From positions 62,001-126,000 of the forward strand of contig CANGYH010000007.1 of assembly GCA_947458545.1 (NCBI GenBank): a DNA stretch of 64,000 bases, read 5' to 3'. The DNA comes from Cytophagaceae bacterium (GTDB lineage Bacteria; Bacteroidota; Bacteroidia; Cytophagales; Flexibacteraceae). The translations under genes were made by a program, and so were the position numbers. The notes beneath the pieces are model-generated. The model saw nothing but the letters and a program-made list of their open reading frames with translations, had not been told where the DNA came from and made no database searches. Every line of letters starts with the position of its first letter. Within the stretch, counting starts at the first letter, position 1. This document shows positions 3,112 through 56,597 of the stretch, piece after piece.

Positions 3112-3130
3112 CCATACCCGCTAACCCGAT

Positions 3131-3280
3131 AAGCAAGGTCTCTGACCTTGCTTTCCGCCGTTGCAAGTCTCCGACTTGCATGGGGATAATTACCCCTGAA
3201 TCAAGCTAGAGGCATGTTTAAATACTAGCAAGTCAGAGACTTGCAGCGGCAATGAAGCAAAGTCAGAGACTTAGCTTAGC
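3131..3280 (+). repeat. Nested-hairpin element S, copy 1
   Basis: Composite inverted element. The left arm is AAGCAAGGTC-tct-GACCTTGCTT (3131-3153) followed by TGCAAGTC-tcc-GACTTGCA (3162-3180), separated by TTCCGCCGT. The right arm is GCAAGTC-aga-GACTTGC (3228-3244), then an AGCGGC spacer and an imperfect AAGCAAAGTC hairpin (3255-3277). The arms are reverse complements in layout. A second full copy lies at 42659-42825 and a solo hairpin at 43698-43724. Confidence 0.8.
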
Positions 3281-3437: not shown

Positions 3438-4334
3438 ATGGCATTACTACAAGAAATCTGGGTGCAAGACATCCAAGAGCGCATGGCCGAGCAAAATGCT
3501 TTTTTGAGCTACTCGGTCGACCATGGGCCCTTCATCACCAACAGCATCGTGCATGTGCCGCAGGCGGGCACACTGCCAGCCTCCGTCAGAAACCGAAGCA
3601 GCCTGCCCGCCACCGTGGGCCAGCGCACCGATGCAGACCTGACCTACCCCATCTACAACCGCAGCACAGACCCGATTTTGGTGCCAGACCTGACCAGCTT
3701 CCAGCTCAGCTACGACAAGCGGCAGTCTGTACTGCAGGCCCACGTAGACCGCCTGCTCGAGGACGCCGCCCGAGACGTAGCCTTCGAGTGGGCACCTACC
3801 CAGGCCGGGCGCATCGTGCGCACCACAGGCACGGCCGGCAGCACCAGCCTCTCGGTGGGGGCCACGGGCACCCGCAAAGCCCTGACGGTGAAAGACGTGG
3901 CCAACCTGGCCCGCTTGTTCGATATGGACAACGTGCCCAGCGGAGACCGCTACCTGCTCCTGCACCCTTACCTCTACTACGAGCTCTTCGACACGCAGGC
4001 CCTGCTGAGCCGCGATGTGATGGGCGGCAGCACGCTGCCTTCGGGCGTTATCGGGCAGCTCTTCGGGTTCAACCTCATGGTGAAGGCGACCCTGCCCGTT
4101 TATGACACCACCGCCACCCGCAAAGACCTAGACGCCGCCCCCGCCACCAGCGACAACCTCTGCGCCCTGGCCTGGCAGCGCAGTTGCGTGGCCCGGGCCC
4201 TCAGCCCGGTAGAGGTTTTCGAGAACGAGAAAGACGCTACCTATTACGGTGATGTCCTCTCGGCCCGCCTCTTCTGCGGCGGCACCAAGCTCCGCTCAGA
4301 CCAAAAGGGCGTTGCCGCCCTGGTGCAGGCATAA
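3438..4334 (+). CDS. Phage major capsid protein (Bacteroidota phage type)
   Basis: Major coat protein of tailed-phage type. From the ATG at 3438 the 298-aa product begins MALLQEIWVQDIQERM and resembles capsid proteins of Bacteroidota prophages throughout. Shared features are SLPATVGQRTDADLTYPIY near the N-terminus, YDKRQSVLQAHVDRL, the central segment VPSGDRYLLLHP, and the C-terminal YYGDVLSARLFCGGTKLRSD. The open frame extends upstream to 3252 but runs through a repeat hairpin and a terminator, so that start is rejected. GC content matches the host. No other head, tail, terminase or integrase gene is adjacent; the next genes are a toxin-antitoxin pair and an outer membrane protein. Portal and protease genes lie about 49 kb away. 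Family assignment is from memory of the sequence pattern. Confidence 0.8.
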   Translation: MALLQEIWVQDIQERMAEQNAFLSYSVDHGPFITNSIVHVPQAGTLPASVRNRSSLPATVGQRTDADLTYPIYNRSTDPILVPDLTSFQLSYDKRQSVLQAHVDRLLEDAARDVAFEWAPTQAGRIVRTTGTAGSTSLSVGATGTRKALTVKDVANLARLFDMDNVPSGDRYLLLHPYLYYELFDTQALLSRDVMGGSTLPSGVIGQLFGFNLMVKATLPVYDTTATRKDLDAAPATSDNLCALAWQRSCVARALSPVEVFENEKDATYYGDVLSARLFCGGTKLRSDQKGVAALVQA

Positions 4335-4410: not shown

Positions 4411-4453
4411 TTGTGGGATGATAAGGCTACCCATAGGTTTTTAGTCTCTTTTG

Positions 4454-4473
4454 CGACAATTGTCGTATATTTA
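4454..4473 (+). promoter_or_regulatory. Palindromic operator and -7 box of the xre-res module
   Basis: A perfect 12-bp palindrome CGACAATTGTCG (4454-4465) abuts a TATATTTA -7-like box (4466-4473), 25 nt before the antitoxin ATG. Xre-type antitoxins usually autorepress through palindromes at this position, so this is the likely operator (inference). Confidence 0.6.
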
Positions 4474-4498
4474 CCTTAGACATCTGGCTGCTGCAACG

Positions 4499-4909
4499 AT
4501 GCCCACAACACAAGTAAATATGCCTAATCCAGATGGTTGGGCAGATAAACAAGCCTTGCTAGAGGCCATTAGACAGGGCGTGCCGGTCTCGTTAATAGGC
4601 ACTGTTCAACGACGCATGGGCATAACCCAGCAGCGTATTGCAGGCTTACTCAACATTACTGCCCGAACATTGCAGCGCTATGCGCCTACCAATCGCTTAA
4701 ATCCGCCATTAAGCGAAAAAGTGGCTTATTTGGAGCATTTGCAAAACTTAGGCCGCCAAGTGTTCGGGACGGATGCGCAGTTTGCCCAATGGCTGCAAGA
4801 AGAACTGCCTGCCTTGAATAACGCAAAGCCCATAGCCTACCTTGATACCATCACGGGCATTCAAGCTGTGCGAGAGACGCTACTCCGCTACCAGCACGGC
4901 ATCTATTGA
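4499..4909 (+). CDS. Xre/MbcA/ParS-type antitoxin
   Basis: Antitoxin partner of the RES-domain toxin that follows. From the ATG at 4499 the product has 136 aa. An N-terminal Xre-like HTH (RRMGITQQRIAGLLNITART) is followed by the C-terminal toxin-binding DUF2384 domain, seen in LSEKVAYLEHLQNLGRQVFG and WLQEELPALNNAKPIAYL. An upstream TTG at 4451 would extend the frame through the operator palindrome and is less likely. In known xre-res systems the antitoxin blocks the toxin active site and represses the operon. The toxin starts 5 nt downstream. Confidence 0.88.
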   Translation: MPTTQVNMPNPDGWADKQALLEAIRQGVPVSLIGTVQRRMGITQQRIAGLLNITARTLQRYAPTNRLNPPLSEKVAYLEHLQNLGRQVFGTDAQFAQWLQEELPALNNAKPIAYLDTITGIQAVRETLLRYQHGIY

Positions 4910-4914
4910 CAGGT

Positions 4915-5388
4915 ATGGATCTGTTTAGACTTACCTCCCCTGCCTTTGGGCTAGATATCAGCGGGCGTGGCGGTTTGTTTGTGAGTGGTCGGTGGCACTT
5001 GCAAGGGTACGAGGTTCTCTACACATCCCCTTCGATAGCGCTTGCCGCCCTAGAGCTACTGGTACAGCCGCGCGTTGGCAAGACACTACCTGCCCTTGTA
5101 TTGCAGACGCTCTCTTTGCCAACAGACTTTGATTTTGAAGCAGTTGCTATTGACACATTGCCTCACACGTGGCAACGGTCTGACCCCTACGACCCTTACA
5201 CACAAAACCGTGGCGTCGCCTTTTTGACGCAAGGCCTGGCACCTGCGCTGCGGGTACCATCTGCGGTGATTCCGCAAGAGCACAATTATATCTTATCGCT
5301 CCAGCGAGCTAAAGTGGCTGGTCTTAGTTTGGTCAGTTGCCAACCTTTTGAGTGGGATCAAAGAATCTGGAAAGCCTCAGACAGGTAA
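4915..5388 (+). CDS. RES-domain toxin (NAD-depleting family)
   Basis: A 157-aa RES-domain protein. It shows the family pattern FRLTSPAFGLDISGRGGLF with the conserved Arg and Gly residues, SGRWHLQGYEVLYTSPS, then ALAALELLVQ and the C-terminal VPSAVIPQEHNYILS. Characterised RES toxins degrade NAD+ or ADP-ribosylate targets and are held inactive by an Xre/DUF2384 antitoxin, which is the upstream gene here. The ATG at 4915 lies 5 nt past the antitoxin stop; a TTG at 4906 overlaps that stop and is the less likely start. The pair sits directly downstream of the lone phage capsid gene. Confidence 0.88.
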   Translation: MDLFRLTSPAFGLDISGRGGLFVSGRWHLQGYEVLYTSPSIALAALELLVQPRVGKTLPALVLQTLSLPTDFDFEAVAIDTLPHTWQRSDPYDPYTQNRGVAFLTQGLAPALRVPSAVIPQEHNYILSLQRAKVAGLSLVSCQPFEWDQRIWKASDR

Positions 5389-25448: not shown

Positions 25449-26737
25449 GTGGTGATACCCTCTGCCGCAGCCCGCCGCTTAGCCCAGGCGGCCATCCAGC
25501 CAATGAGCCCGCTAGAGGTGAGCAAGACCATAGCGCCTGCCTGGTAAGACAAGACTGCCTGGCCAGCCCCCACAGCAATGGCCTGGACTATGCCGGCAAC
25601 ACCTGCCAGCGCCAGCAACCCTCTAAATAGCCAGAGGGGCTTTAGCCTGTAATCCAACAGAGCCCAGCCCAGGCAGGGCAGCAGCCCAAGCAGGCCCATA
25701 CCCCAAAAGCCCAGCGGGCCGTGGTTGGCAACGGCTCCGGCTATGCCTATGCCTAGGCCCAGCACCAAAACCAGCGGCATGGCAATGGCGATAACCTTGC
25801 CCCTAGGGGTGATGACGCTGCGGCCGTAGCGGTCTAGCCACAAGCTGGTAACCTCTAGCCCGGGGACAGCCCAGGGCAGGTACATAGAAAGGGCAAGAAC
25901 CAAGCCTACAACAACCAATGTAAAAGCTTGGTAGCCTGCCTCTTGGGCCGTACTCTGAAAGAGCACTCTTAGCACTGTAAACGTTAAAAAGGTGGCCCAC
26001 CAAACATAGTTATTGCCTTTGAAGTTGGCCACGGCCTCTAGCGCACGGGCAAACCAACTGCGCTCTCGGATGGCCTCTACCAGGCCCTCGTGGGCTTCGG
26101 GGTGGCCGGGGTATTGTTGCAGTACCCGGCGAAAGGCATCGGCAGCCTCATCGAAGCGGCGCTGGGCCATGTGGCGGCGGCCCTGCAGCAGCAAGCCAAA
26201 CGTATCATCGGGGAACGTTTGGCAATAAGCCTCTTCGGTTTCGTCCACCGCGGCGGCATCTTTCATCTTACGGATGAGGTGCAGGCGCAGCCGCCAGGTG
26301 ATGGGGTTGGGTGCCTCCTCTAGCGCGATGCAGGCTTCAATGGCGGCCAGGGCGTCGTCGTTCTGGTCTAGCTCGTCTTGGCACCAGGCCAGGTGGTAGA
26401 GGTACTCGGCCTGATCGGGCGCATCGGGCTCGGTCAGCAAATGCTCGAAGCACTCCACGGCTGCGGGATAGTCTTGGGCATAGCGACTGTACAGCCCGCG
26501 CAGGTACAGCCCCGCAATCGTGTCTGGAAACTGCTCGTCGTAGCGCTCCAGCATCTCGGCTGCCAGGTCCAGATCGTCCTGCAAAATCGCCAGATACGCC
26601 CGAGACCAGAGCACGTCTGGGTTGCCTGGGTCCAAGGCTTCGGCCTGGTCTAGCGCCTGGCGGGCTTCGTCGTAGAGTTCAGCATCCAGGCAAAGGTTAA
26701 ACTGCTCCAGGGCCTCGGAGACGGAGTCGAAGTGCAT
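25445..26737 (-). CDS. TPR-repeat membrane protein
   Basis: A 430-aa protein. Residues 1-225 form five to six tetratricopeptide-like helical repeats (for example LDQAEALDPGNPDVLWSRAY and AADAFRRVLQQYPGHPEAHE). Residues 235-420 contain about six membrane segments. TPR units mediate protein contacts; the role of this architecture is unknown. It converges on the tyrosine kinase gene with a 4-nt overlap of the two stop regions, and diverges from the restriction-modification locus. Confidence 0.75.
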   Translation of the reverse strand: MHFDSVSEALEQFNLCLDAELYDEARQALDQAEALDPGNPDVLWSRAYLAILQDDLDLAAEMLERYDEQFPDTIAGLYLRGLYSRYAQDYPAAVECFEHLLTEPDAPDQAEYLYHLAWCQDELDQNDDALAAIEACIALEEAPNPITWRLRLHLIRKMKDAAAVDETEEAYCQTFPDDTFGLLLQGRRHMAQRRFDEAADAFRRVLQQYPGHPEAHEGLVEAIRERSWFARALEAVANFKGNNYVWWATFLTFTVLRVLFQSTAQEAGYQAFTLVVVGLVLALSMYLPWAVPGLEVTSLWLDRYGRSVITPRGKVIAIAMPLVLVLGLGIGIAGAVANHGPLGFWGMGLLGLLPCLGWALLDYRLKPLWLFRGLLALAGVAGIVQAIAVGAGQAVLSYQAGAMVLLTSSGLIGWMAAWAKRRAAAEGITT

Positions 26738-26835
26738 GAGATATGCAAGATAATGGCACTTAGCGCTTTAGGCAGCTTTACACGACTTAGACTTAGGGGT
26801 CTGTTAACCAAAGTTCTTAAATTGTCACTTGGATG

Positions 26836-26868
26836 TTTTGTTACTTTGTGTACGATTAGCTATGTTTG
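26836..26868 (+). promoter_or_regulatory. Consensus promoter of the methyltransferase gene
   Basis: TTTTG (26836-26840), 20-nt spacer, TATGTTTG (26861-26868). The ATG follows after 4 nt, so the mRNA would be almost leaderless. Confidence 0.7.
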
Positions 26869-26872
26869 TGAT

Positions 26873-28159
26873 ATGTATCTGTCTATCGATCAATACGCAA
26901 CTAAATATGGACTTACGAGGCAAACGGTCTCTAAGCTCATTAAGGCTGGCGAGATAAATGCTGAAAAAATCGGCAAGCAATACAGAATTCGCGAACAATC
27001 CCTTTCTCTACAAGAGCCAGAATTATTTTATATACCCAGAAAGGATAAGGCCGTATTAAATTTCGATAAAAAGCAAGCTGAATTAGATATTATATATTCA
27101 GAGGATCTGGCATCCATAGTTCCTGTAATTTATAAACATGAAAATATATGGAACTCATTATACCAAGGTGAAAACTCTAAAATTATGCGTACGCTACTAC
27201 ATGATTTAGCAGGCAAGATCGATTTAGTTTACATTGACCCTCCATATAATACAGGTGATGAGTTTCATCACCTTGAAAAGGGTTTTGCTTATTCAGATAA
27301 GTTTACCCAGCCAGAATTTTTATATTTCCTCAGGGAAAGATTGGTTCTTATTAGGGAATTGCTTAGTGAAAAGGGCAGCATCTATATACACATCGATAAA
27401 AAAATTGGACATTACGTCAAAGTGTTAGCAGATGAGATATTTGGATTTGATAATTTTATCAATGACATTACAAGAATCAAGTGCAATCCGAAAAATTTTG
27501 GTAGGCAGGCTTATGGAAATCAAACTGACATGATTTTATTCTACGCCAAGAAAAAAAACTATAATATCTGGAACAATGTTTCCGAGGAGTTAGATGTAAA
27601 TGAAAGAGCTAATTTCTTTAAGAAATGGCATCCAAAGCATGGTTATTACACAACCCATCCAATTCATGCGCCCGGAGAAACTCGCAATGGCGATACTGGT
27701 GAAGACTGGATGGGTATGTCACCACCCCCAGGCAGACATTGGAGATATAGCCGTGCGGAACTAGACCGACTGAACGCAGAGGGGCTAATAGAGTGGTCTC
27801 CATCAGGCAATCCAAGAAAGATTGTATTTGCAAAGGATCACTCTGGGAAAAAAATTCAAGATGTGTGGGAGTTTAAAGATTCTGGCCTATCTAGGTCTCA
27901 TTACCCCACCCAAAAAAATCTGGACCTACTGAACCGAATCGTTGAAGTCTCCTCTAATGAGGATTCTATAGTTATGGATTGCTTCTGTGGTTCTGGCACA
28001 ACCATCATCGCTGCTGAAAAATTAAAAAGAAGGTGGATTGGAATAGATGAAAGTCCATTGGCTATCACAGTTTCTAGTGATAGGTTAAATGAATTGAACT
28101 CAAGCTTTAATTCTTTTCGTTGTAACCAACCCTCTAGATACTGTCTAAATAGTCTTTAA
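26873..28159 (+). CDS. Site-specific DNA methyltransferase (beta class) with N-terminal HTH
   Basis: Modification enzyme of a restriction-modification pair. The start at 26873 is chosen because a consensus promoter precedes it, giving 428 aa. Residues 1-45 form an excisionase-type HTH (SIDQYATKYGLTRQTVSKLI and KQYRIREQSL). The catalytic motif IV is DPPY (122-125, VYIDPPYNTGDEF). The SAM-binding motif FCGSGT lies near 371-376, after motif IV, which is the beta-class order of N6-adenine or N4-cytosine methyltransferases. The HTH could regulate the locus or assist specificity. The gene is AT-rich unlike its neighbours and its 3' end overlaps the convergent nuclease gene by 26 bp. Confidence 0.9.
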   Translation: MYLSIDQYATKYGLTRQTVSKLIKAGEINAEKIGKQYRIREQSLSLQEPELFYIPRKDKAVLNFDKKQAELDIIYSEDLASIVPVIYKHENIWNSLYQGENSKIMRTLLHDLAGKIDLVYIDPPYNTGDEFHHLEKGFAYSDKFTQPEFLYFLRERLVLIRELLSEKGSIYIHIDKKIGHYVKVLADEIFGFDNFINDITRIKCNPKNFGRQAYGNQTDMILFYAKKKNYNIWNNVSEELDVNERANFFKKWHPKHGYYTTHPIHAPGETRNGDTGEDWMGMSPPPGRHWRYSRAELDRLNAEGLIEWSPSGNPRKIVFAKDHSGKKIQDVWEFKDSGLSRSHYPTQKNLDLLNRIVEVSSNEDSIVMDCFCGSGTTIIAAEKLKRRWIGIDESPLAITVSSDRLNELNSSFNSFRCNQPSRYCLNSL

Positions 28160-35768: not shown

Positions 35769-38700
35769 TTAACGAGCTATTTGAAAGTGTTTGTTATACT
35801 CACTGAGTCCATCGGTGAGCTTTAGAATGTAGGTGCGCCCTAAGGGTAAGTCTGACACAGGAATCGAGATGAAATTGGTATTTGATTCATCATCGCCACG
35901 ATAGTAGAAGTTGCCTTGTGTATCAAAAATCTCCCACGAGGCTTTCAACTTGGGGTACACCGGATCATTGAGGGTAGCGCGCAAGTTGGTTGCAGCCGGG
36001 TTGGGCGAGAGTGTAAGGTAAGGCATACCTTTGAGCAAGAAGTCCACATCTTCTGACCAGCTCTGACCGCTGCCGCTGACGATAACCTGGTACGTACCTG
36101 GAGCAATATCACCTATGGGTAGCTTGGCAGATATTGCTTGGCTTGTGGTTTGGAAGAGCGGATTGCCCGCAAAATCAGCTAAAGTGTAGGTATAGTCGCC
36201 GAACGATTTAGGGACGGTCAGAGCGACACTTATGCTATCGTCAAGCCCTTGGCGAGCAGGGTTTGGAGATACGACCAAGGCTTTACCGGGTGATGCCAGA
36301 TAGAGGTCCAAAGTCCAGGTAATATCCCCATTCTTGGCAGATAGGATATAGTGCGCAGGCAGTAAGCCTTCCAGATTGACATCTACCCGACCATCCGGAA
36401 ATGAGCCTGACCAAACTACTTTGTCACGTTCGTCCATTAACTCTGCTTCCACAGGCCTGCCGAATATCTCCGATGAATCTACACCGGCATACAAAGTGGC
36501 CCGGGCCGTCTGGTCTTCCTGATACACAACCGGGTTTTTGACGAATCTACCCCCAGGTAAAAAAGACAAATTTATGGAAAAGTAATCGGTCTCAGGCAGA
36601 TTCTGGTTTTGACAGCGGTTACGAACGTAGAATACTACTGTACAAGGCGGCAAAATATCTATCTGAACATTAGGCGTATTCAACGGCAAGGCAACCCAGC
36701 CCCTAGAGCTGCCTAAAACAGTAGGCTGATTATTGCCAACACTTCTGAAAGCAATCCACTGATATTGATCTGAAAAATGTGTTAAATAAGTTAGTCTAGT
36801 ACCGCCCGCTGGGCTACGAGATATTTCAGGTTGGTCAGCCGTAGCAACGTAAGCCGGACCAAGTACTGTGAATGACCTGCTGCCGAACAACCGACATCTT
36901 TGTGGCGTAAGCACTTCAGCTTCGACTGTAAACCTATTGATGTTATTTGGCAGCACATTGGAAAATTGTGCTGAACCTGTTCCCTGTCCGCTAATTAAAT
37001 TGCCACCGGTTGTAGTCCAAGTCACAGTACTGCCGGGTGGGAAAGCTCCTACTTGTAAACTAATATTAGAACCTGGCGGGCTGCAAACAAACCTAGGCCC
37101 CAAGATTTCCTGTGTGGGTTCGCAAGCTGCAGGACAATTGGCTTCAGTGTACGCAGTATTAGTTGCTTCAGACCTTAGAAGTGCAGCTGAACGCTCAGTG
37201 AAAAACGGATGCGTAAAATTATGCCTCATGGTATTGGTAGCATTATTTGCGCGAGGCCGCTCGGCCGAGAAATTAGCAATTGAAGCTCCTATTGGCGGTG
37301 AGACTACAGGTGAGTTCACAAAATAATTTCTAGGCCTAAACAATGCAAGGTCAGATTGCACGCTTTGACCCAGACCGCTTGCTGCAGGAATGAAGCAGAA
37401 AGCAAAGTTTCTTACAGTGGTTTCCGTCATATAAGTAACCACAAATCTGTCCAGCAGGTAAACTGGCGAAAATGTGGAAATATTCGTAGGTGTATCCCCA
37501 GTGCTTAAGCTGCCACCCGGTGCAAAATCCCATGCTTTATGACCGTCACCTGCATCTACATTTGCAGTTAAGTTTACAAGATTGTACCGCCTCTCATACA
37601 CGGCAAAATTGCCTAAAGAGATGACTCTAACTATGTCGTCTATATTAAACGTTACAATGGAGCCTCCAACACTCTCGTTTGGCATACCATTCAGCCTCAC
37701 TAGTAATCCATGGTCATGCCTTATGAGCCTAAAACTACCGGGGCGGCTAGAGAACCGAACAGAGTAAGAATAAAAGATACGATTGAGAATGTCGTCTTGG
37801 CCAATACCACATTCACTACCAAGGGTAGTAGGTACAAATCGATATTGCGCACCAGGTACGTTAGCTACTTGAGCTTGATACCAAGCAAGCCAGGCATTAC
37901 TGTAGTTTGTATTAAAGGTTAGGCCATCAAAGCTAAATTTAGCAATGAGCATATTATCTGCCGCAGGACAATCAGCTATTGCTATCAGCTCTCTTAAGTA
38001 GGTGCCATTCAGAATGGTTTCAACCTGTTGATTTAGCCTACCAATCATGCGGATGCCTGCTGCAGATATTGGTGTTGGATTAATTGCTGCATAAATCCCC
38101 CGACCGCTTGCAATTAGCGACCTGGCCAATATTTGAAATGCTACCGGTACATTTGCACCAGAGTGTGGGCTGTCTTGAGTAAAAAGCAGGCTAACGAAGG
38201 TGTTGTCAACGTTGTTGTTTGCTTGCACTAGCTGCGCTAAGCCTAATCGGGCTACCAATCCGCCCATGCTAATACCTACCACTACGGCCGGATGATCTGC
38301 TAAAACCAGATTAGTTTGCCGGTTTGCGTTCACCCATGCCAGCACTTCTTTAAACAGGTCAGCATTACTCTGAATGCTTGCAGTACTGTTGTTGTAATTT
38401 AAAAATACCAAGTCTCGACCATTAGTACCCTGTGATAATTGGGCGTTTCTAAAGTTAAACTCACTTACAATATCTTCATAGGTGGTCCCAGATTGTACGA
38501 TGTGAGGAGCTACATCATTGAAATCAATACCCTCAAGAACAATAAGGGGATCTCGCAGCAGCCATTGATTCACGTCTCCTACTGGTCTGTTCGATTCTGC
38601 AAAACCAATATGGAGAGTGCCACCAGCATGTACCCCTGCTCGTGGTAAAACATTAACGATACGATCTACAACAAATGGCCAGACAGTTGGTGTGTTAGGC

Positions 38701-41707: not shown

Positions 41708-42673
41708 ATGGCAGACGTGCGCATCTCGGTCATCGTACCGGTTTACAACGAGGAGGCCAACCTGGCCCTGCTGCGGCAGCGCCTCACGGCCGTGCTGGAG
41801 GGCCTGGCCGGCCCGGCCTACGAGGTCATTTTCATCAACGACGGCAGCCGCGATAAGTCTATCGACATCCTGCACGCCTTCGCGGCCGAGGATGCCCGCC
41901 TGCGCTACGTCAACTTCAGCCGCAACTTCGGCCACCAGATAGCCGTGTGGGCCGGGCTGGATCGTGCCCGCGGCCAGGCCATCGCCATCATAGACGCCGA
42001 CCTGCAAGACCCGCCCGAGGTCATTGCCGACCTCTACGCCCGCCTGCAGCAGGGCTACGAGGTCGTCTATGCCCGCCGCCGCCAGCGCCAGGGCGAGAGC
42101 TGGCTCAAAAAAGCCACGGCGCGCGCCTTCTACCGCACGCTGGCCTCCATCACTTCGGTGTCCATCCCCGTAGATACGGGCGACTTCCGCATCGTGGACC
42201 GGCGCGTGGTAGAGGTGCTGCGGCAGATGAAGGAGCACAACAAGTTTATCCGCGGGCAAATCGCCTGGGTTGGCTTTCGGCAGACGTATGTGGAGTACGA
42301 CCGCCACAGCCGCCACGGCGGCACCACGGGCTACACCTACGGCAAGATGCTCCGCTTTGCGCTCGATGGCATCACCAGCTTCTCAGACTTTCCGCTGAAG
42401 CTGGCCAGCTATATGGGGTTCTTTGTGGCAGCGGCTTCTTTTCTGATGGGCATCTATGCGCTCTACGGCCGCTTCATCCGCAAAGACTACGTCCCCGGCT
42501 GGGCCAGCCTGATGCTGGTGATGCTCTTTCTGGGCGGGGTGCAGCTCTTCTCGCTCGGCATCATCGGCGAGTACCTCAGCCGCATCAGCCAAGACGTCAA
42601 GAACCGCCCGCTGTACGTGGTGGCCGATGAGAGCCCGGAGGCCGCAGTTGGGCCTGCTAAGCAAGGTCTCTGA
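41708..42673 (+). CDS. GT2 bactoprenol-type glycosyltransferase
   Basis: A DPM1/GtrB-like family 2 glycosyltransferase of 321 aa. The GT-A domain shows ISVIVPVYNEEANL, INDGSRDKS, FGHQIAVWAGLDRARG, the metal-binding IIDADLQDPPEV and DTGDFRIVDRRVV. Two C-terminal membrane segments follow (YMGFFVAAASFLMGIYALYG and WASLMLVMLFLGGVQLFSLG), as in GtrB, then EYLSRISQDVKNRPLYVV. It transfers a sugar to a polyprenyl carrier at the membrane. The last residues, GPAKQGL, and the stop codon lie inside the repeat hairpin at 42659-42681, so the native C-terminus was replaced. Confidence 0.9.
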   Translation: MADVRISVIVPVYNEEANLALLRQRLTAVLEGLAGPAYEVIFINDGSRDKSIDILHAFAAEDARLRYVNFSRNFGHQIAVWAGLDRARGQAIAIIDADLQDPPEVIADLYARLQQGYEVVYARRRQRQGESWLKKATARAFYRTLASITSVSIPVDTGDFRIVDRRVVEVLRQMKEHNKFIRGQIAWVGFRQTYVEYDRHSRHGGTTGYTYGKMLRFALDGITSFSDFPLKLASYMGFFVAAASFLMGIYALYGRFIRKDYVPGWASLMLVMLFLGGVQLFSLGIIGEYLSRISQDVKNRPLYVVADESPEAAVGPAKQGL

Positions 42674-42825
42674 CCTTGCTTTCCGCCGCTGCAAGTCTCC
42701 GACTTGCTAATTGGTCTAGGCCCGAAGGTGGAAATTAGTTTAGCGGCTTTCGTTCAAATTAGCTTTGCAATAGATTGCAAGTCAGAGACTTGCAGCGGCG
42801 GAAAGCAAAGTCGGAGACTTTGCTT
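42659..42825 (+). repeat. Nested-hairpin element S, copy 2
   Basis: Left arm: AAGCAAGGTC-tct-GACCTTGCTT (42659-42681), spacer TCCGCCGCT, GCAAGTC-tcc-GACTTGC (42691-42707). Right arm: GCAAGTC-aga-GACTTGC (42777-42793), AGCGGCGG, AAGCAAAGTC-gga-GACTTTGCTT (42803-42825). The arrangement is the same as copy 1 (3131-3280), but the core between the arms differs. The outer stem differs from its mate by a compensated G-C to A-T change. Confidence 0.85.
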
Positions 42826-42845
42826 AGCAATGGCTAAGTCATAAA

Positions 42846-52291: not shown

Positions 52292-52413
52292 GGCGGCAGG
52301 TTGAATTTGAGGCCGTTTGCACGGCATATTCTACGCAGCGCCAGCGCATGGGGTTGGCCGGAGCCGAATTTTTTGCCGCATGGCCCGGTTATGCTGGCAA
52401 AGACCACCACCCC

Positions 52414-52806
52414 ATGGACCAAAGCCCCAGCCCCACCGATAGCCTGGCCCAGGCCGCCGCCCGCCAGATCCGCAAACTGTATTACGTTTTGCTGCGCGTG
52501 CTAGAAGAAGACCGCTTTTTGCCCGCCGACGAGCTAGACGTAATGGCCACACGTCTGGCGCGCATCTTCCGCAACGGGGCTGGCATCTACCAACGGCGCA
52601 ACCTGGCACCACAAGACCTGCGCGACGACTTCGGCCTCCTCTTCGAGGCCCTCATCCAATCTACGCTGAAAGACGAGCTCTACGAGCAAACGGCCAACCT
52701 GTCTCGGGTGCGTGCCCGATTTGAGGCCCAAACCGCCGACACCGCCCCAGATCTCTGGCCCAGGCCTGCCGCCATGGCTCCAACAGAGGCCAGGCAACCC
52801 TTATAA
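52414..52806 (+). CDS. Helical protein of unknown function
   Basis: A 130-aa, largely alpha-helical protein from the ATG at 52414. Visible are QIRKLYYVLLRVLEEDRFLP, DELDVMATRLARIFRNGAGI and LFEALIQSTLKDELYEQTAN, then a Pro-rich tail. No family recognised. It lies next to, and convergent with, the phage portal/protease pair, but nothing links it to phage by sequence. Confidence 0.5.
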   Translation: MDQSPSPTDSLAQAAARQIRKLYYVLLRVLEEDRFLPADELDVMATRLARIFRNGAGIYQRRNLAPQDLRDDFGLLFEALIQSTLKDELYEQTANLSRVRARFEAQTADTAPDLWPRPAAMAPTEARQPL

Positions 52807-53099: not shown

Positions 53100-54275
53100 T
53101 TAGATTGTTTTGTGAGCTTCGGGCTCCTGCAGGGCTATTCCAAACTCGGCAGAGAGCCAGGGTGCGGGTATGCGGTAGTGGGGTAGCAAGGTGCGCACCA
53201 GGTCTAGCTTCAGGGCTGGAGGCAGGGCGTCCTCGTCGGGCAGAAACTGAAAGCGGACGCCTGCCACGGGCATACCCAGCCGCTCCATGCGGGGCAGCAG
53301 TGCCGTGTTTATTACCTCCTCTACCCACTGCGCATCTGCGCGGAACAAGGCCTGGCCGATGCGCTCGTGTACCTGCGCCTGCGCCAGCGATCCGCCCCGG
53401 TCTGTCGTCATGGTCTGGCCCAGCACCAGCTTGCTTAGTTGCTCGTCAGCAAATCGGCAGAGCGGCTCGTAGCCAGCCTGGGCGGCGTTGCCTTGGGCAA
53501 ATTCGATGCGGTCGTCCTTGTCGAAGACGCCCCAACCCGCTGCCCCCAGCGTGTTGAGCATCTCGCCCACACGGGCGTACTGTGCAGGGTCGTCCAAGGC
53601 AGTATGCGCAGCGCGGAAGGGCATGCCAAACAGCTCTAGGTAGCGGTTCCAGTAGGCAAGTGCCTGTTGCTTGGCCAACACCAGCGGCACGGCCTGGGCC
53701 AGCAGCCCCAGCGGGCTGCCCGGGCTCAGGGGCACGGCCCAGTCGGCATAAGGCGGCTCGTCGTAGCGCAAGCGCAGGCCGCCCTCGGTTTCTACCTCCT
53801 GGCTTTGAGGCCAGAGCTGTTGCTCGGGTACATTGCTGGCGTGGGCAAAGCCTCCGGCAGGGCGGGGAGGCCCCAGCTGCACCAGCCCTGGCCCCCAAAA
53901 AAGAGCACGCACGGCCAGCCGCTTAAAATCTGCAAACCAAGCCCCGGCCAGGGCATCTTCGGCATCAGGGGCGGGCTTGCCATTGGGGCCCAGCAGTTGG
54001 TAAGGGCGGCTGGTGGTGGCCAGTGTCCGCTGCTGCAGCACGCTGGCCAGGTGGGCGTCTTGCACGGCTTGCTCGTAGAGGCCCACCAGCAGCTTGCGGT
54101 TGCCGTTGCGGGCCTGCCGCATGGCAGAGCGGTAGGTGTCCATACTGGGCTCGGGCAGCCAGGGGGCAGTGCGGCGCTGTGGTGGGGGCAGCGGATTGTG
54201 GCGTGCCTGCCCCTGGGCATGCAGGCGGCCTAGCCAGGTGGGTAGGCGGTTAGGCAAAAGAGAGAGCCAGCTCAT
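53100..54275 (-). CDS. Phage portal protein, Mu gp29-like (DUF935)
   Basis: Forms the ring at the capsid vertex through which DNA enters. The 391-aa product shows the DUF935 blocks: DTYRSAMRQARNGNRKLLVG, QDAHLASVLQQRTLATTSRP, YWNRYLELFGMPFRAAHTAL, LNTLGAAGWGVFDKDDRIEF and FADEQLSKLVLGQTMTTDRG, then a C-terminal LDLVRTLLPHYRIPAPWLSA block. It is somewhat shorter than Mu gp29. Its ATG overlaps the stop of the upstream protease gene (ATGA), so translation is coupled. GC content matches the host. No terminase, capsid or tail gene is adjacent; the capsid gene lies at 3438. Confidence 0.85.
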   Translation of the reverse strand: MSWLSLLPNRLPTWLGRLHAQGQARHNPLPPPQRRTAPWLPEPSMDTYRSAMRQARNGNRKLLVGLYEQAVQDAHLASVLQQRTLATTSRPYQLLGPNGKPAPDAEDALAGAWFADFKRLAVRALFWGPGLVQLGPPRPAGGFAHASNVPEQQLWPQSQEVETEGGLRLRYDEPPYADWAVPLSPGSPLGLLAQAVPLVLAKQQALAYWNRYLELFGMPFRAAHTALDDPAQYARVGEMLNTLGAAGWGVFDKDDRIEFAQGNAAQAGYEPLCRFADEQLSKLVLGQTMTTDRGGSLAQAQVHERIGQALFRADAQWVEEVINTALLPRMERLGMPVAGVRFQFLPDEDALPPALKLDLVRTLLPHYRIPAPWLSAEFGIALQEPEAHKTI

Positions 54276-55228
54276 CGGGTACCTCCCTTCTGCCCATAAC
54301 AGGCGCGGTATAGGGCCTCAAACCGGGCCGGGTCTTCGGCCTGCAGGCGCGCCAACCACTGCGGATTGTGGCGCTCCCACTGCCTGAAAGTCCGCTCCGG
54401 CTGCCCATTTGCCCTGGCCGTAGCCTGTGGCAGGGGTGTATAGGCCGATGCAACGGCTGCCGATGGCGCAGCCAGCCGCCCTTCCAACGCCGTTAGCTGG
54501 GCCTCCAGCGCAGCCAGTTGGGCCAGCAGGGTGGCCAGCCCCTCGGCCGGGGCGGCGGGCGGTTGGCCTGCCGATGCATCAGGCGCGGGCCGGGCTTGCA
54601 GCAGGGTGGCCTGCAGTGCTTCTATCCCAGCCTGGGCCTGGGCGCGCAGGGTTTGCTCTAGGGCGGGCTGGGGGGCTTGGCCTGCCAGGTCTGTGGCCAG
54701 CCCCAGGGCCAGTGCTTCAGAGGCCGTCAGCCAGGTTTCGGCCTGCATCATGGTGGCCAGTCTGCCGTCTGACAGCGCTGTTACGTCGGCGTACATCTTC
54801 AACACAGACTGCCGCACGCGCTCTAGAATCAGGGCGTTGCCGGGGTCTTCAGCCTCACCCTCGGCCGTCAGGCTCGGGTTGTGCAGCATCAGCATAGACC
54901 ATGGCGCCATGTGCCGGTGCCGCCCCGCCAAAAAGAGCAGCCCTGCCATAGAGAGGGCCAGGCCGTCGGCCCAGGTGTGTACCTCCATGCGGGTGTGGCG
55001 CAAGGCGGCAAACAGGCTATAACCCTGCGCCACCGAGCCCCCGGCCGAGTTGATGCGCAGGTGGATGCGCGGGCAGCCCTCGGCCTCTAGCCGCCAGACC
55101 TCGCGCGCCAGCGCATGGCCGTCGGCATGGCCGGGCCCCAGGGTGTCGTAGAGCGTCAGCACAGGCTCGCCCGCGGGGATGGGCAGCAGGGTTGCGCCGC
55201 TTGGGCTTAATGGTTTTTCTGTTGTCAT
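54272..55228 (-). CDS. ClpP-like prohead protease (peptidase S49/ClpP superfamily)
   Basis: Predicted capsid-maturation protease of 318 aa. The ClpP-fold signatures are all visible: INSAGGSVAQGY (60-70), active Ser93 in LALSMAGLLFLAGR, His116 in MLMLHNPSL, and the late Asp region TWLTASEALALGLATDLAG. The C-terminal 130 residues are Ala/Gln/Leu-rich, a plausible scaffold-like tail. The ATG at 55228 is chosen; an upstream extension to 55408 overlaps the divergent acyltransferase promoter. It precedes the portal gene with a 4-nt overlap. Phage proteases of this fold cut scaffold or coat proteins during head assembly. Confidence 0.85.
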   Translation of the reverse strand: MTTEKPLSPSGATLLPIPAGEPVLTLYDTLGPGHADGHALAREVWRLEAEGCPRIHLRINSAGGSVAQGYSLFAALRHTRMEVHTWADGLALSMAGLLFLAGRHRHMAPWSMLMLHNPSLTAEGEAEDPGNALILERVRQSVLKMYADVTALSDGRLATMMQAETWLTASEALALGLATDLAGQAPQPALEQTLRAQAQAGIEALQATLLQARPAPDASAGQPPAAPAEGLATLLAQLAALEAQLTALEGRLAAPSAAVASAYTPLPQATARANGQPERTFRQWERHNPQWLARLQAEDPARFEALYRACYGQKGGTR

Positions 55229-55388: not shown

Positions 55389-56597
55389 ATGCTTACCGCC
55401 ACCCACATCAGCCCGGCCCTTAGCCAAAAGATGCGCTTTTGGAGCTTTGCCTCTATGTTGGCCTTGGTGTTTGTACACGGCTACAACCTGCGCGACAATT
55501 ACCTGCAGCCCTTCACCATGCCCGGCGAGCCCATGACGGCCACCGCCTTTGGCGAGTACCTGCTGGCCAACGGCCTGTTGCGCTTCCGTATTCCGATGCT
55601 GTTTGCCATCAGCGGCTACCTCTTTGCCTTGGGCGACGCTCGGCCCTTTTGGCCTCGGCTGGGCCGCAGGCTGCGCACATTAGGGGTGCCTTACCTGGCC
55701 TGGTGTGCATTGGCCATCGGCCTGGCAGCCCTGCTTACCTGGGCACACCCCCTTACCCGGCAGGCCGTGCTGGGTGCCCAGTTGGGCGCGTTTGGCATGC
55801 AGCCCGTCTGGCAAGCCCCGTGGCAAGCCTGGACCAGCGCCTTCACCTTCGAGCCACTGGGCTTTCAGCTCTGGTTCATCCGTACGCTGCTGCTGTGCAA
55901 CCTGCTCTATCCCCTGTGGCGGGCCATAGTGCTTGGGCCTGCCTGGGGCCGTTGGGTAGCCTACACGCTGCTGGGCCTGGCCTGGGTGCATGGCCTAGAG
56001 ATTCCCTTTGTGGTGCCAGAGGGCTTGCTGTTCTTTTTGCTGGGTGTGCAGTATGCCAAGCGGGGGTTGCCTGCCGGGCCTCCCTGGCCGGTGTGGCTGG
56101 CCGCCACCCTATGGGTAGGCCTTTGCGTAGCCAAGACCTGGGTGGCCTTCCATGTAGAGTGGCATGCCCTGGTGCCCAACCCCCAAACAGGCGACGATTA
56201 CGTGCTGCGCCTGCTGCTGCCTGCCGGTAGCCTAAACTTGCCGCAGCCTGCCTACTTCTTGGGTATGCTGCTGGTGCACCGCCTGGCCGAGGTAGCCGGC
56301 CTCATCACCGCCTGGTACGGCCTAAATGGCCTTGCTCGCCGCGCCATGGCCTGGCGTCCGTTTGCCTGGGCATCGGCCTTCAGCTTCTTTCTGTTTATGG
56401 GCCACGAGCCGCTGCTGCATTACGTGCAGGGCACCCTCAACCTGGCCGTGCCGCACTTTGCCCTTTACCGCCTGGCTACCTACCTGCTGGTGCCCAGCAC
56501 CGTCATCGCCTTGTTGATAGCCGCCGGGGCCGCCTTGCGGGCCGCCTGGCCCCAGGCCTACCGCGTGCTTACGGGTGGCAGGGGCCAGGGGCTCTAG
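55389..56597 (+). CDS. Acyltransferase family 3 membrane protein
   Basis: A 402-aa integral membrane protein with about 10 membrane segments. It resembles OafA-type acyltransferases: FVHGYNLR after the first segment, RFRIPMLFAISGYLFALG, QLWFIRTLLLCNLLYPLW and FLFMGHEPLLHYVQG. These add acetyl or other acyl groups to extracellular polysaccharides or lipids. The start at 55389 gives the usual N-terminus. It diverges from the protease/portal operon. Confidence 0.85.
   Translation: MLTATHISPALSQKMRFWSFASMLALVFVHGYNLRDNYLQPFTMPGEPMTATAFGEYLLANGLLRFRIPMLFAISGYLFALGDARPFWPRLGRRLRTLGVPYLAWCALAIGLAALLTWAHPLTRQAVLGAQLGAFGMQPVWQAPWQAWTSAFTFEPLGFQLWFIRTLLLCNLLYPLWRAIVLGPAWGRWVAYTLLGLAWVHGLEIPFVVPEGLLFFLLGVQYAKRGLPAGPPWPVWLAATLWVGLCVAKTWVAFHVEWHALVPNPQTGDDYVLRLLLPAGSLNLPQPAYFLGMLLVHRLAEVAGLITAWYGLNGLARRAMAWRPFAWASAFSFFLFMGHEPLLHYVQGTLNLAVPHFALYRLATYLLVPSTVIALLIAAGAALRAAWPQAYRVLTGGRGQGL

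Follow-up and report, generated by a model that had tools for sequence, protein, structure and literature searches.

Five phage head and packaging genes, encoding a large terminase, a probable head-tail adaptor, a portal protein, a prohead protease and a major capsid protein (Table 1), lie unbroken at four loci in the genome of a Cytophagaceae bacterium, with at most two of the genes together, and homologues of four of the five occur as a module in Winoviridae-like phages. What has kept these genes? We slightly favour the reading that they are a domesticated head-and-packaging set, resembling a gene transfer agent and taken from a Winoviridae-like phage, over the reading that they are a prophage relic. 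The preference is tentative, and we put the chance of domestication a little short of even. The window referred to below is the whole 64,000-nucleotide stretch analysed (G000:C7:62001-126000), which belongs to a genome of 3.23 Mb in nine contigs, with completeness 99.73 and contamination 0.08.

Table 1. The five dispersed head and packaging genes: location, strand, product and family evidence
Product	Location	Strand	Length	Evidence
Portal protein, Mu gp29-like	window 53100-54275	(-)	391 aa, complete	PF06074 Portal_Mu, E 4.8e-65
ClpP-type prohead protease	window 54272-55228	(-)	318 aa	PF00574, E 2.3e-24; PHROG 133, E 1.4e-36
Major capsid protein	window 3438-4334	(+)	298 aa	PHROG 267 major head protein, E 1.4e-30
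Large terminase	G000:C4:101427-102815		462 aa	PF04466, E 3.8e-42; intact motifs
Probable head-tail adaptor	G000:C4:198587-199147		186 aa	profile of 12 phage adaptors

Identity and surroundings of the five genes

The first-pass annotation described an adjacent, intact portal and protease pair with a 4-nt overlap and no terminase, capsid, tail or integrase around it, and the description stands. Both genes are complete, they overlap at 54272-54275, the genes flanking them are host-like, and queries with 610 phage-locus proteins added no structural gene in the window, where the Pfam and PHROGs scans covered selected ORFs only. The overlap looks like that of a working operon, which argues against the pair being a relic. 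The PF06074 match of the portal spans positions 3-336 of the 336 in the profile (Pfam scan), and a portal profile matched a 512-aa phage portal in the PDB (9khx, E 2.2e-23). With the portal structure model (mean pLDDT 70.7), the best fold matches are JBD30 and Mu entries, the top Foldseek match being the JBD30 connector entry 8rka (E 9.9e-11), and the gene transfer agent entries 6toa and 6tba rank lower in the list; because the portal fold is common to all portals, a fold match cannot separate a gene transfer agent from a phage.

The protease ORF opens at 55408, with a sensible ATG at 55228. Its product belongs with the head maturation proteases (PHROG 133) and the CLP_protease family (PF00574), and it matches the NCBIfam models NF045540 (E 2.2e-35) and NF045542 (E 3.2e-31), both under their cut-offs. 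The residues Ser93 and His116 and the INSAGGSV loop, which had been read from the sequence as present, are borne out by the alignment, in which S93, H116 and INSAGG line up with the phage homologues. The C-terminal motif starting FRQWE is also retained; the stretch preceding it is shorter than in the phage homologues, and the scaffold-like C-terminal part is shortened. Three other places in the window were considered and set aside as phage parts: a 19-bit match at 26732-28159, where the ORF is methylase-like; a phage neck protein match at 36162-36410, which falls within a 1222-aa ORF reading as a large secreted protein and was judged to be chance; and a small ORF at 52348-52806, which has no Pfam, PHROG or NCBIfam match and finds no phage-locus protein better than E 0.3.

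The capsid gene that had been placed 49 kb from the pair is real, and its start needed correction. The ORF, of 360 aa, opens at 3252, and we put the likely start at 3438 because M63 of the ORF aligns with residue 1 of phage capsid proteins. The protein is 48% identical to the capsid protein of phage contig L036, and a capsid profile matched the P-SCSP1u capsid protein in the PDB (8i4l, E 5.4e-17). Sequence profiles were used because the capsid structure model is poor (mean pLDDT 50.4, best fold match E 2.3e-5). Directly downstream of the gene is an Xre/MbcA/ParS-type antitoxin and RES-domain pair (window 4451-5388), and a 370-aa ORF is another neighbour. A repeat upstream, at window 3125-3280, recurs at window 42658-42828 and at several sites on contigs C4 and C7 (L127, L150, L023, L155).

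The terminase and adaptor genes lie on C4. A profile of three closer IMG/VR phage terminases has a single match in the genome, at C4:101520-102770 (E 3.1e-77); the profile built from the first phages found (A1) has none. The terminase scores above the cut-off of the NCBIfam PBSX-type terminase model, and by sequence it matches solved structures named Gene 2 protein (E 1e-15), the Sf6 terminase. Aligned with phage homologues, it retains the Walker A motif (GGAGSGKS), VEEA and the nuclease Asp positions at 266, 324, 429 and 432. Its neighbours, read by eye, are an asparagine-synthase-like ORF and a glycosyltransferase-like ORF.

The adaptor profile also has a single match in the genome (C4:198653-199126, E 3.2e-13). 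Eight phage-locus proteins match the product, all of them adaptors and two of them copies in one genome. Compared pairwise, it is matched at 17-36 bits in 5 of the 17 phage loci and not at all in the remaining 12. Searches against Pfam and NCBIfam gave no match, and PHROGs only one at E 0.024 to an unknown family. It is on the profile evidence, then, that we regard this gene as probably encoding a head-tail adaptor. Divergent from it is a 163-aa ORF (C4:199207-199698, L126:11207-11698), which was considered as a missing phage part and rejected, since Pfam, PHROGs and NCBIfam all gave nothing and the phage-locus proteins scored no better than E 0.3 against it. The earlier idea of a distributed head-gene set holds as to dispersal, and the set is larger than had been seen: the genome-wide check for terminase and adaptor that the idea called for gave one terminase of the matching kind and one probable adaptor, at separate loci.

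The phage module, the relatives and the missing tail

From what sort of phage might these genes have come? Of the 17 phage loci compared, 7 have homologues of all four of terminase, portal, protease and capsid: L036, L037, L041+L042, L160, L161, pippi8-1 and the prophage of G254. The remaining ten include some incomplete contigs and several loci whose terminase is of the other type. Best identities of these four proteins to the module phages are about 32-48%, so that no close relative is known. In Flavobacterium phage vB_FspM_pippi8-1 (NC_048830.1; Winoviridae, Pippivirus) the four homologues belong to one region, in the order small terminase, large terminase, adaptor (PF07030), portal (PF06074), PF04233 protein, PF05069 protein, protease, structural protein, sheath and tail protein, and the region also includes a baseplate hub and an endolysin, whereas the bacterial genes are at four loci. 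The annotated adaptor of pippi8-1 is of the PF07030 kind, and the bacterial adaptor gives no pairwise match to that phage. The IMG/VR contigs L036, L041+L042, L160 and L161 resemble pippi8-1 in carrying the four homologues.

Porphyromonas phage phage008a_KCOM2797 (BK068090.1) has a capsid protein 37% identical to the bacterial one and a portal homologue at 95 bits; its genes are contiguous, and its terminase and protease give no match to ours. In the 26.6 kb viewed, the annotation names a major tail gene and a tape measure gene of 3.8 kb, and a sheath is not among the genes listed. Since a phage of this sort has tail genes and lacks a sheath, a missing sheath does not by itself exclude a tail.

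Neck and tail parts were sought throughout the bacterial genome; a tail search had been proposed in the first-pass annotation, and its outcome went against a working particle. Two sheath profiles gave no match in this genome and matched 5 of 7 and 4 of 6 genomes searched; the tail tube, PF05069-type and MuF profiles likewise gave none and each matched 4 of 5 genomes searched, although for the first sheath, tube and PF05069 profiles some matched genomes had supplied profile rows, so that those matches come partly by construction. These neck and tail parts would belong to a complete gene transfer agent particle, and their failure to appear favours the relic reading; the missing sheath and tube would also suit a structure that is all head.

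The whole of C4 and C7 (373,693 bases) was scanned with 12 profiles and the 610 phage-locus proteins, a scan that took in the baseplate hub on these two contigs. The yield was the five head genes and one prophage of another type; the few other matches are ORFs reading as transporter, methylase, helicase or host genes. No other piece of the same kind of phage was found by these queries among ORFs of at least 40 aa, a length below which short broken pieces would escape, and this speaks against a decayed prophage. The resident prophage, at C4:133656-171482 (L150-L152), is apparently whole, with integrase, repressor, terminase, portal and tape measure genes and a capsid-like gene assigned by position only. 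It ends beside a gene reading as pfkA.

Relatives offer another view. With the present genome included in each count, a Mu-type portal is found in 7 of 59 genomes of the relatives search, in 26 of 291 genomes of the order and in 3 of the 11 family genomes examined, and the portals of the other two family members (G001 and G003) adjoin adaptor and terminase genes in phage order. We examined 29 of the 35 other order-wide portal matches, from 25 genomes. In 27 of the 29 the portal has an adaptor, MuF, terminase or PF05069 gene as a separate neighbour, and in the other two, near contig ends, MuF is seen only within the portal ORF itself; in none is a protease found beside the portal, within flanks of about 1.5 kb, a contrast that we count for domestication. 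No relative examined has a portal set out as here or keeps the set, and this we count for the relic reading. Co-occurrence of the head loci in related genomes, put forward earlier as a test, leans as far as it goes against a working system, in a comparison that is weak because the relatives include none of the same genus.

An exact-peptide-pattern scan of a named species collection, which may leave out records of this genome or of near neighbours, found terminase relatives in Hymenobacter sp. UV11 and in a Microscillaceae MAG, where the gene lies in phage order. A stretch of G003 (C57:565-6687, L143) holds a 137-aa ORF, a large terminase and ORFs of 163, 500 and 667 aa adjoining a gene reading as pgk; the last three ORFs have no PHROG match. 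We considered it as a second dispersed set and rejected it, as the 667-aa protein is present in G003 alone of the 59 genomes.

Selection, decay and other readings

Have the five genes been kept by selection, or have they simply not yet decayed? The relic reading holds that a dead Winoviridae-like prophage was cut up by deletions and rearrangements, that five head genes stayed unbroken by chance, and that they make nothing, or single proteins with no role. We consider it a serious contender, itself somewhat short of an even chance. A Winoviridae-like prophage as such would have contiguous head, tail and early genes, and here there are four loci with no sheath or tube found. Against decay, the five ORFs (4,980 nt) contain zero in-frame stops and the catalytic positions are retained. 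A neutral-decay estimate that assumes a 10% indel share gives a probability of about 0.008 for all five being unbroken at 1% neutral change, and about 0.09 at 0.5%. Being unbroken, the genes must be under selection or have lost it only recently, and scattering over four loci takes time. The chance survivors of a relic would, moreover, happen to be exactly those required for assembling a head and packing it.

On the other side, three of the five proteins retain a smaller share of near-invariant positions than every phage row (portal 29/38, terminase 39/48, adaptor 10/17), whereas the protease (10/13, with 2 of 12 phages lower) and capsid (6/6) do better. The comparison is asymmetric, since the bacterial proteins were measured against the full set of phages and each phage against the rest. 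Gene transfer agents themselves closely resemble remnant phages, according to PMC11841831, a likeness that also helps the relic reading.

Codon use of all five genes is within the host range, at percentiles 0.23-0.83, which counts towards function. The ORFs adjoining each locus, read by eye and in some cases scanned against families, read as host genes and include no replication or integration genes. PADLOC defence models matched none of seven proteins. We looked as well for signs of shared regulation. The motif YTTKTGCCRAA has only two matches in the window, upstream of capsid and of protease, and 10 sites on C4 and C7, of which 3 are at head-gene loci; it was devised post hoc from three upstream regions, as many window matches arose in 8 of 100 shuffles, and we rejected it. 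No 9-mer is common to three of the four upstream regions. The 21 that are common to two, a count reached in 3.55% of 2000 random sets of four, come in part from one 16-base stretch common to the terminase and adaptor upstream regions, which we took for chance coding similarity; this sharing too was rejected as regulatory evidence. The want of a shared motif counts against domestication.

An encapsulin consists of a shell gene and a cargo gene, with neither portal nor terminase. By a third reading, the cell uses the capsid shell, alone or along with portal and terminase, as an internal compartment or DNA store of encapsulin-like origin. Encapsulins are HK97-fold protein compartments related to viral capsids and do occur in Bacteroidetes (PMC8346489). 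An enzyme compartment, however, would not need the portal, adaptor and terminase kept here, and nothing next to the capsid gene, where the neighbours are the Xre/RES pair and the 370-aa ORF, was recognised as a cargo enzyme. We judge this reading improbable.

It is less probable still, to the point of being hard to credit, that heads of the dispersed set are completed by a tail or lysis gene of the resident C4 prophage. The genome does hold that apparently whole prophage of another type, with its tape measure gene; but it is already equipped with a terminase and a portal, which leaves no sign of any exchange, the joining of unrelated neck parts is unlikely, and the proposal is pure conjecture on our part. 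That contamination or misassembly put phage fragments into host contigs, as might be feared of a draft in nine contigs, we practically dismiss, since every locus is flanked on either side by host-like genes within a contig of 148 or 225 kb, codon use is host-like, and completeness is 99.73 with contamination at 0.08.

Relation to gene transfer agents

The domestication reading runs as follows. A host would have taken over the large terminase, head-tail adaptor, portal, protease and capsid genes of a Winoviridae-like phage. The genes would have come to four chromosomal places, no phage replication or integration genes being seen beside them, and selection would have kept all five intact. The likely product would be a DNA-filled head: capsid shells would be assembled on the portal and matured by the protease, and the terminase would drive DNA in through the portal. 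As no phage replication genes are attached, most of the DNA packed would come from the host, much as happens in gene transfer agents. Delivery would have to do without the ancestral contractile tail, possibly by means of another tail, or by release on lysis and uptake as free DNA.

How near does this come to the known agents? A bias toward cheap amino acids is a mark of gene transfer agents. Mean carbon per residue falls at host percentiles 0.66 for the portal, 0.08 for the protease, 0.31 for the capsid, 0.73 for the terminase and 0.38 for the adaptor, so that the bias relative to host proteins is absent except in the protease and lends domestication no clear support. Phage-derived structural and packaging genes are present in the host genome, intact, with no replication or integration genes seen alongside. 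In these respects the set is like the five genetically distinct types, RcGTA, BaGTA, Dd1, VSH-1 and VTA, in which such genes are likewise chromosomal and in many cases spread over several loci, some with only one or two genes (PMC11841831 and PMC11409702). In RcGTA a single head-tail cluster accounts for 17 of the genes, which number at least 24 (PMC11409702), whereas here at most two genes are together and no tail was found. We do not file the set as a gene transfer agent, because the tail parts sought were not found.

The original suggestion of a system akin to a gene transfer agent gains from the terminase and adaptor, and loses from the thin co-occurrence and the tail parts that did not turn up; as far as gene content can tell, a working agent is possible. 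The stronger proposal, that this is an independent gene transfer agent of Bacteroidota, of Winoviridae-like origin, dispersed at one or two genes per locus and so more finely than known ones, with its tail replaced or lost, we think rather unlikely. Such an agent would indeed be new, as the first-pass annotation had said: none of the five types listed in PMC11409702 is from Bacteroidota, and among the matches listed, titles and abstract openings named no Bacteroidota gene transfer agent, in a search whose scope left preprints and most subscription journals outside. Prominent gut packaging events in Bacteroidota are ascribed to lateral transduction in PMC12946183.

If the set is a relic, it shows plainly that head genes can survive unbroken after the loss of their phage, and it is a warning against calling gene transfer agents from gene content. 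If it is a real system, it would be a new origin of gene transfer agents in another phylum, and would mean that such systems can be broken up into lone genes, an arrangement overlooked when prophage clusters are what is searched for.
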